Positions 15,722 through 58,318 of a DNA stretch of 64,000 bases are shown here, piece after piece. The first letter of the stretch is position 1. Each line of letters starts with the position of its first letter. Both the position numbers and the translations under genes were made by a program. The notes beneath the pieces are model-generated. The model was given only the letters and a program-made list of their open reading frames with translations, made no database searches and was not told the origin of the DNA. This DNA is from Spiribacter vilamensis (lineage in GTDB: Bacteria > Pseudomonadota > Gammaproteobacteria > Nitrococcales > Nitrococcaceae), in contig NZ_SHLI01000001.1 in assembly GCF_004217415.1 (NCBI RefSeq), forward strand, positions 682,001 to 746,000. The letters are read 5' to 3'.

Positions 15722-15840
15722 GCCTTCTGGGCAATTCAATCAAAAAACCACACATGGTCCGACACGGCTGGCGGGGTGCCCTTAGAGGTTGTCAGCTGCG
15801 GGTCCATGGAGGCTCAACCCGATCAAAAGGAGTTTCAGAC
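15722..15840 (+). promoter_or_regulatory. Structured rpsB 5' leader (candidate S2 autoregulatory region)
   Basis: CATGGTCC (15753-15760) can pair with GGTCCATG (15801-15808) apart from one mismatch. It encloses a GC-rich interior where GACA (15761-15764) and TGTC (15790-15793) can also pair. A strong Shine-Dalgarno AAAAGGAG follows at 15825-15832. Gammaproteobacterial rpsB leaders are known to bind S2 for feedback control. The match here is by position and pairing only. Confidence 0.35.
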
Positions 15841-57878: not shown

Positions 57879-57968
57879 GGAGAGGTGGCAGAGTGGTCGA
57901 TTGCGGCGGACTTGAAATCCGCTGAGTCCGAAAGGGCTCCGGGGGTTCGAATCCCTCCCTCTCCGCCA
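57879..57968 (+). tRNA. tRNA-Ser (anticodon UGA)
   Basis: A 90-nt tRNA with encoded CCA (57966-57968). Acceptor GGAGAGG (57879-57885) pairs with CCTCTCC (57958-57964). The anticodon stem GCGGA/TCCGC (57906-57910/57918-57922) holds loop CTTGAAA with anticodon TGA at 57913-57915. A long class II variable arm (about 57923-57940) and the T-loop TTCGAAT follow. The long arm and UGA anticodon identify serine, reading UCA and UCG. Confidence 0.97.
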
Positions 57969-58036
57969 GACATAAAACAGGGGCCGCAGGCCCCTTTTTT
58001 ATGTCTGATGCAGCGCGGGGTTCGAACCCCCGGAGC
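57936..58036. repeat. Imperfect 100-bp palindrome: inverted copy of the tRNA-Ser tail around its terminator
   Basis: GCTCCGGGGGTTCGAA at 57936-57951 (tRNA variable/T-arm) recurs exactly inverted at 58021-58036. CAGACATAAAACAGGGGCC at 57967-57985 recurs inverted at 57989-58007 with one mismatch, and the axis is GCA at 57986-57988. Only the 13-15 nt between the two blocks differ between arms. On the minus strand this looks like a second tRNA 3' end followed by the same terminator. Confidence 0.85.
57980..58000 (+). terminator. Intrinsic terminator of tRNA-Ser
   Basis: GGGGCC-GCA-GGCCCC (57980-57994) is followed by six T (57995-58000). An outer pairing AGACATAAAA/TTTTATGTCT (57968-57977/57997-58006) would extend the stem. 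It lies 11 bp after the tRNA CCA. Confidence 0.9.
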
Positions 58037-58318
58037 AGATAAACGGGGTTCGACCAATCGCGCGAGCGATTGGGACGCGTCGCGCAGCGATGCGCCCGAA
58101 GGGTGAGGCCGCAGGGTGAGGGTGAGGCCGAAGGCCGAATCAATTCTTCCCGGCTCTTCCGTTGTTGGTTCTTCCCGACCCTTTGCACATGCCTTATACA
58201 CATCGAGGAGTGTGTATAGGGCGTGTGCAAGCGGTGAGGAAAAGGCAACAGCAGTCTGCCTCGGTTCAATTAACCGGAGTTCAGGGGCTGAACGGCCCGC
58301 TCCAGATCCAGCGGCAAC
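58037..58318. other. Non-coding structured region downstream of tRNA-Ser
   Basis: About 280 bp without a credible gene; open frames here are tRNA-antisense artefacts or lack family features. It contains a hairpin CCAATCGC-GCGA-GCGATTGG (58054-58073, GNRA-type loop). A second, GCGTCGC-GCA-GCGATGC (58077-58093), has one G-U pair. A direct repeat GGGTGAGGCCG lies at 58101-58111 and 58120-58130, a 20-bp stem-loop at 58183-58230, and a small GTTCA-GGGGC-TGAAC hairpin near 58279-58293. It may encode a small RNA or be an extragenic repeat block. Confidence 0.6.
58183..58230. other. 20-bp stem-loop
   Basis: The left arm 58183-58202 (TTGCACATGCCTTATACACA) pairs with 58211-58230 over 20 bp; as plus-strand RNA two of the pairs are G-U wobbles. 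The 8-nt loop is TCGAGGAG. No T-run follows, so it is not an intrinsic terminator. Compensatory wobble changes suggest an RNA structure, perhaps a small RNA, rather than a DNA palindrome. Confidence 0.75.

Follow-up and report, generated by a model that had tools for sequence, protein, structure and literature searches.

The window, a stretch of 64,000 nucleotides of the Spiribacter vilamensis genome, carries on its plus strand a tRNA-Ser(TGA) gene with an encoded CCA (57879-57968), which was recognized by ARAGORN and by the Rfam tRNA model with 59 bits. Weak Rfam matches over the same gene (sX4, Plastid-psbl-rps4) stayed under the cut-off and were dismissed. Elsewhere in the window, an Rfam t44 RNA was detected over the cut-off on the plus strand (15731-15818, 62.6 bits).

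The end of the tRNA-Ser gene runs into a terminator palindrome, CAGACATAAAA...TTTTATGTCTG (57967-58007), whose outer stem begins with the CA of the tRNA CCA. The original prediction spoke of a 19-nt block inverted across the terminator axis, and such blocks do flank the intrinsic terminator: 57967-57985 and 57989-58007 are complementary in 18 of 19 pairs. From locus to locus the sequence of this outer stem changes on its two sides in register. An exact inversion of 16 bases had also been claimed, and it was confirmed. The source arm GCTCCGGGGGTTCGAA (57936-57951, plus strand), consisting of the 3′ strand of the variable arm, the 5′ strand of the T-stem and part of the T-loop, is the exact reverse complement of 58021-58036. 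The latter positions belong to a mirrored variable-arm/T-arm segment on the minus strand (58017-58036), which has one mismatch in 20 nt and is exact over the last 16. With mismatches allowed, the arms reach from 57936-57960 to 58012-58036 and are 88% complementary. In the whole window this is the single exact 16-nt inverted pair with arms no more than 120 nt apart; when the window was shuffled 20 times by a first-order (Markov) procedure, no such pair arose.

How much of a tRNA does the mirrored segment represent? It had been proposed that the minus strand reads like a second tRNA 3′ end. This is correct for the 3′ strand of the variable arm, the T-stem and the T-loop, but not for the acceptor strand and CCA part, of which the window holds no mirror copy (58008-58016). 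In a Sulfuriflexus relative the mirrored tail is full-length, with the CCA included.

The T-arm palindrome and the terminator palindrome have a common axis near 57986. Such a geometry could be produced by chance or by a local template switch around the terminator, and the shared axis is what speaks for this origin. However, behind each of the four tRNA-Ser genes of the genome (TGA, CGA, GCT, GGA) stands a terminator palindrome, together with the variable-arm/T-arm segment of that gene in inverted orientation. The block recurs at these four loci and in many genera, where GGTTCGA and usually a longer insert come after it. This recurrence refutes chance or template switching as the full explanation, to which we attach next to no probability, although template switching may have been the first origin of each mirror copy. 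The recurrence also bears on the suggestion of a relic of an inverted tRNA-Ser fragment. It is apt insofar as the window copy is decayed, but the arrangement is not a one-off.

Each of the genome's 43 tRNA genes was given a score for how well its own tail recurs in inverted orientation no more than 120 nt away. The four tRNA-Ser genes and tRNA-Arg(ACG) had the top scores (12-17), followed by tRNA-Gln(CTG) with 11 and tRNA-Val(TAC) with 10, the latter owing to a second tRNA gene at that place; the remainder scored 4-7. The tRNA-Arg(ACG) locus has kept the inverted and direct tails, and its insert is deleted. At tRNA-Gln(CTG) an eroded remnant has kept the inverted copy and GGTTCGAC (these two loci are L268 and L276). 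The insert model found three copies in this genome, every one at tRNA-Ser genes.

Downstream of the inverted arm, the window copy continues on the plus strand. A hairpin, P2, is proposed from the sequence between TCGAACCCC (58022-58030) and GGGGTTCGA (58045-58053), and the GGTTCGA of its second side is preserved in nearly all related units. Then comes the insert (58047-58141), with GGTTCGAC, hairpins, CCCGAAGGGTGAG and GAATC. Hairpin A, CCAATCGC-GCGA-GCGATTGG (58054-58073), was located from the sequence and by comparison with related units. Hairpin B (58077-58094) was placed by the covariance model R1 described below and by covariation in its training set. Hairpin C, CCCGAAGGG (58095-58103), is the best-conserved stem of the insert, as judged by comparison and covariation. 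A direct copy of the tRNA 3′ tail follows in decayed form (58138-58160), reading AATCAATTCTTCCCGGCTCTTCC where relatives have AATCAATCCCTCCCTCTCCGCCA. Within the decayed unit there is a 16-nt direct duplication, AGGGTGAGGCCGCAGG / AGGGTGAGGCCGAAGG (58100-58134). The window contains one unit and no tandem, whereas relatives have tandem arrays. Given the ruined direct tail and the duplication, the window copy is probably a vestige. Further downstream lies a strong hairpin, TTTGCACATGCCTTATACACAT...GTGTGTATAGGGCGTGTGCAA (58185-58239), and a similar one was observed past the unit of a tRNA-Ser GCT gene at another locus (L011).

Intact units of about 180 bp, often in tandem, are present in genomes of the same genus. 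After the tRNA end they consist, in this order, of the terminator palindrome, a spacer, the inverted copy of the variable arm and T-arm, then GGTTCGAC, a set of hairpins with CCCGAAGGGTGAG, GAATC and finally the last 19 nt of the unit's own tRNA (A58-A76). GGTTCGA(C) together with the direct tail makes up the T-arm and 3′ half of the tRNA, split by the insert after A58 in the T-loop, and the mirror image of this sequence precedes it. Through the 19-nt tail the units repeat in tandem. We extracted 82 units at tRNA-Ser, tRNA-Tyr and tRNA-Gln genes over all loci; the exact 19-nt tail of the own tRNA is present in 54 of them, and most of them are 170-186 nt long. Other copies were sought both in the own genome and in relatives and are present in both, the opposite of the absence that the original prediction had named as evidence against itself. 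Its proposal of an extragenic repeat with a tRNA tail came near the mark, since what was found is an RtT-like trailer repeat that accompanies each of the four tRNA-Ser genes and occurs throughout the genus.

Several loci deviate from this plan. In genome G160 (locus L228, G160:C1:490800-492300), three tandem 213-bp tRNA-Gln bodies with an RtT-like insert in the T-loop are followed by an intact tRNA-Gln. In the same genome, seven near-identical RtT-like inserts are dispersed as part of a longer intergenic repeat, and a tRNA gene was not detected in their vicinity (L181, L187, L190, L223-L226). In genome G017 (L165), a complete RtT-like unit has inverted and direct tails, and no tRNA gene was detected within 1.5 kb. 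Four pattern matches in Cellulomonas, Zoogloea, Frankia and Acidobacteria, all without an adjacent tRNA, were dropped as chance.

The position in the T-loop, the direct repeats of the tRNA tail and the inverted symmetry are features that an attachment site of a tyrosine recombinase at a tRNA gene could have, and such a site had been among the original suggestions. The neighbourhood speaks against it: six tested ORFs (dihydroorotate dehydrogenase, two L,D-transpeptidases, a ParA-type ATPase and two without a family) have no integrase domain, and only about 180 bp lie between the tails. As these ORFs lack an integrase domain and the element is present at each tRNA-Ser gene of the genome, this reading was rejected; we regard it as very improbable.

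Does each copy follow the tRNA gene behind which it lies? In Spiribacter the inverted block matched its own tRNA with a mean score of 16.3, compared with 12.7 when the tRNAs were reassigned; outside Spiribacter the values were 14.5 and 10.6, and in both sets 0 of 2000 permutations reached the observed match. When the test was confined to one isoacceptor, the better match persisted outside Spiribacter for tga, cga and gga (0/2000 for each) and did not persist for gct with its five loci (905/2000). In Spiribacter, where the isoacceptors hardly vary, the test has little power for cga (88/2000) and gct (138/2000), and tga and gga were uninformative. The insert cores behave differently. Their mean identity is 90% between tRNA-Ser genes of one genome versus 83% for the same isoacceptor across genomes, and the within-genome value was reached by none of 1000 label shuffles. 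The higher identity within genomes means that the inserts are homogenised there, while the tails stay with their own tRNA. The inserts evolve in concert, and the mirror and direct tails track the host tRNA. The exact identity of the tail to the own tRNA is not needed for folding, and recombination alone may be its cause.

These observations can be read as the record of a self-perpetuating DNA repeat without RNA function, which would expand and contract through its 19-nt tails, with conversion spreading the inserts between tRNA-Ser loci and the tRNA overwriting the tail copies. The near-identity of tandem units, the homogenised inserts and the existence of decayed copies agree with it, as do deletions that fuse tRNA and unit. 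The G160 tRNA-Gln array is one example. Another comes from genome G001, a single contig, where the one tRNA-Ser(GGA)-like gene that was found has the end of a unit in place of its T-arm (L048, G001:C1:1210392-1210600); this replacement may be recombination damage or an assembly error. Against the DNA-repeat reading stand the hairpin covariation held over long distances, the retention of the core in many genera, the annotation of E. coli RttR as an RNA and the northern signals for RtT RNAs in Actinobacillus (PMC4986893). We consider it a possible explanation, though the less probable one when set beside the RNA reading given below. In the strand test of RNA against DNA action, the hairpin mispairs were 8 G-T versus 6 A-C.

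The covariation comes from the training set of model R1, which was built from eleven inserts at tRNA-Tyr and tRNA-Gln only, with the tRNA tails excluded. The hairpins of this training set covary, with 18 cells changed on both sides versus 5.8 in shuffles (0/500). RNAalifold did not recover hairpin A, whose variable length is the probable cause. In the window R1 matched 58047-58141 with 41.8 bits (E 1.5e-8), the next match having an E of 0.059, and on the fetched tRNA-Ser-type loci it found 43 places at E < 1e-4. Over a phylum-wide draw it was detected in 64 of 299 genomes at E <= 0.001, many of them from one family outside the class of the window. R1 loci were located beside genes for tRNA-Tyr, -Gln, -Ser, -Arg, -Lys and -Pro; some matches are close to tRNA-Asp, and a few stand apart from any tRNA.

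We favour, with fair though incomplete confidence, the view that the inverted block belongs, as one of its arms, to an RtT-like trailer unit attached to tRNA-Ser, whose read-through RNA would fold and could be trimmed at the CCA. A polymerase reading past the terminator would transcribe the unit. The inverted block would then fold on GGTTCGA to form P2 (58022-58030 with 58045-58053) and, in complete units, also on the direct tail to form a second stem, P1. By analogy with the annotated E. coli RttR, the 3′ end of which coincides with the direct-tail CCA, the P1/P2 fold could give a mimic of a tRNA 3′ end that is trimmed at the CCA. In the window copy the loss of the direct tail makes P1 impossible; this loss and the low score of the window copy with the Rfam RtT model, given below, count against the view. 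As for its role, the unit may serve as an RNA domain when transcription runs on from the tRNA, or it may be a trailer repeat that perpetuates itself.

The inverted block might also act in cis on the tRNA itself: in the read-through RNA it would pair with that tRNA's variable arm and T-arm and keep it from folding. As computed for seven tRNA-Ser transcripts, pairing of block and tRNA makes the whole fold 9.5-19.7 kcal/mol more stable than separate folds of tRNA and trailer, and the block tracks its own tRNA even in 5 nt of the variable arm that are superfluous to P1 and P2. Canonical Tyr/Gln units, however, gain just 1.6-7.4 kcal/mol, and the terminator stands between tRNA and block. Moreover, the tRNA, being transcribed ahead of the block, would fold during transcription, and GGTTCGA is a competing partner of the block in P2; these two circumstances disfavour block-tRNA pairing as the main state, and we hold such an anti-tRNA trailer to be improbable. 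More broadly, and rather speculatively, RtT-like units could be a widespread class of elements inserted in the T-loop after A58. They would be moved or copied between the tRNA genes of a genome and adopt the tail of each host, giving either a tRNA-3′-end mimic or a trailer that co-evolves with its own tRNA and is able to unfold it. We think this generalization unlikely.

The presence of the RtT architecture behind tRNA-Ser in Spiribacter and at other tRNAs in the phylum provides comparative material on what RtT does. It also carries a warning that recombination with such units may damage their tRNA genes.

RtT is known from enterobacteria (Bosl and Kersten 1991, as cited in PMC2965389 and PMC4986893), and its structure is backed by covariation (PMC8250186, PMC7657543). 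The Rfam model RtT (RF00391), which pairs the inverted with the direct tail, gave 13.2 bits on the window copy and did not reach its cut-off of 45. At a tRNA-Ser unit of a genome from the same order (L082) it was above the cut-off with 51.1 bits, as it was in 18 of 274 genomes of a class-wide draw, where the fetched loci lie at tRNA-Tyr, -Gln and -Ser. The window copy shares with RtT the position directly behind a tRNA gene (tRNA-Ser end at 57968) and, through R1, the homology of the insert without the tail. It has neither the intact 19-nt direct tail nor tandem arrangement, and the terminal stem P1 is missing since the direct tail is decayed and the mirrored part shifted to the T-arm. Because of the score under the Rfam cut-off and the state of its tail, we name it an RtT-like variant and not a member of RtT. 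In our search of the open-access literature, neither RtT at tRNA-Ser or tRNA-Gln nor the split-T-loop anatomy turned up. Judged from sequence, the element appears to be the tRNA-Ser form of an RtT-like repeat, RtT itself being already known.

The repeat of E. coli K-12 tyrTV has the order tail AATCCTTCCCCCACCACCA, inverted GGGGAAGGAT, AAGGTTCGAC, hairpins, CCCGAAGGGCGA and tail. Like it, the units described here are tandem (about 178 bp in E. coli) and lie right behind the tRNA, with a 19-nt direct tail A58-A76, an inverted tail strand, GGTTCGA and GC-rich hairpins with CCCGAAGGG. They differ in the host gene, which is tRNA-Ser here and tRNA-Tyr in E. coli, and in the intrinsic terminator at the start of the tRNA-Ser units, unlike E. 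coli RtT. The mirrored part comprises the variable arm, T-stem and T-loop (TTCGAAC) here, and the 3′ strand of the T-stem plus the acceptor (GGATGAGAA) in E. coli. The window copy further differs from E. coli RtT in its lack of an intact direct tail and its score under the Rfam cut-off. Arrc20 and Arrc21 of Pasteurellaceae (PMC4986893) have been assigned to the Rfam RtT family, are tied to tRNA genes (Asn, Lys) and were detected as RNA by northern; in contrast, they are placed upstream of their tRNAs and occur in another lineage. REP/BIME elements, within which rtT-like sequences have been noted (PMC2965389), are also short palindromic intergenic repeats, but they form a high-copy dispersed set, whereas the three insert copies in this genome all lie at tRNA-Ser genes.
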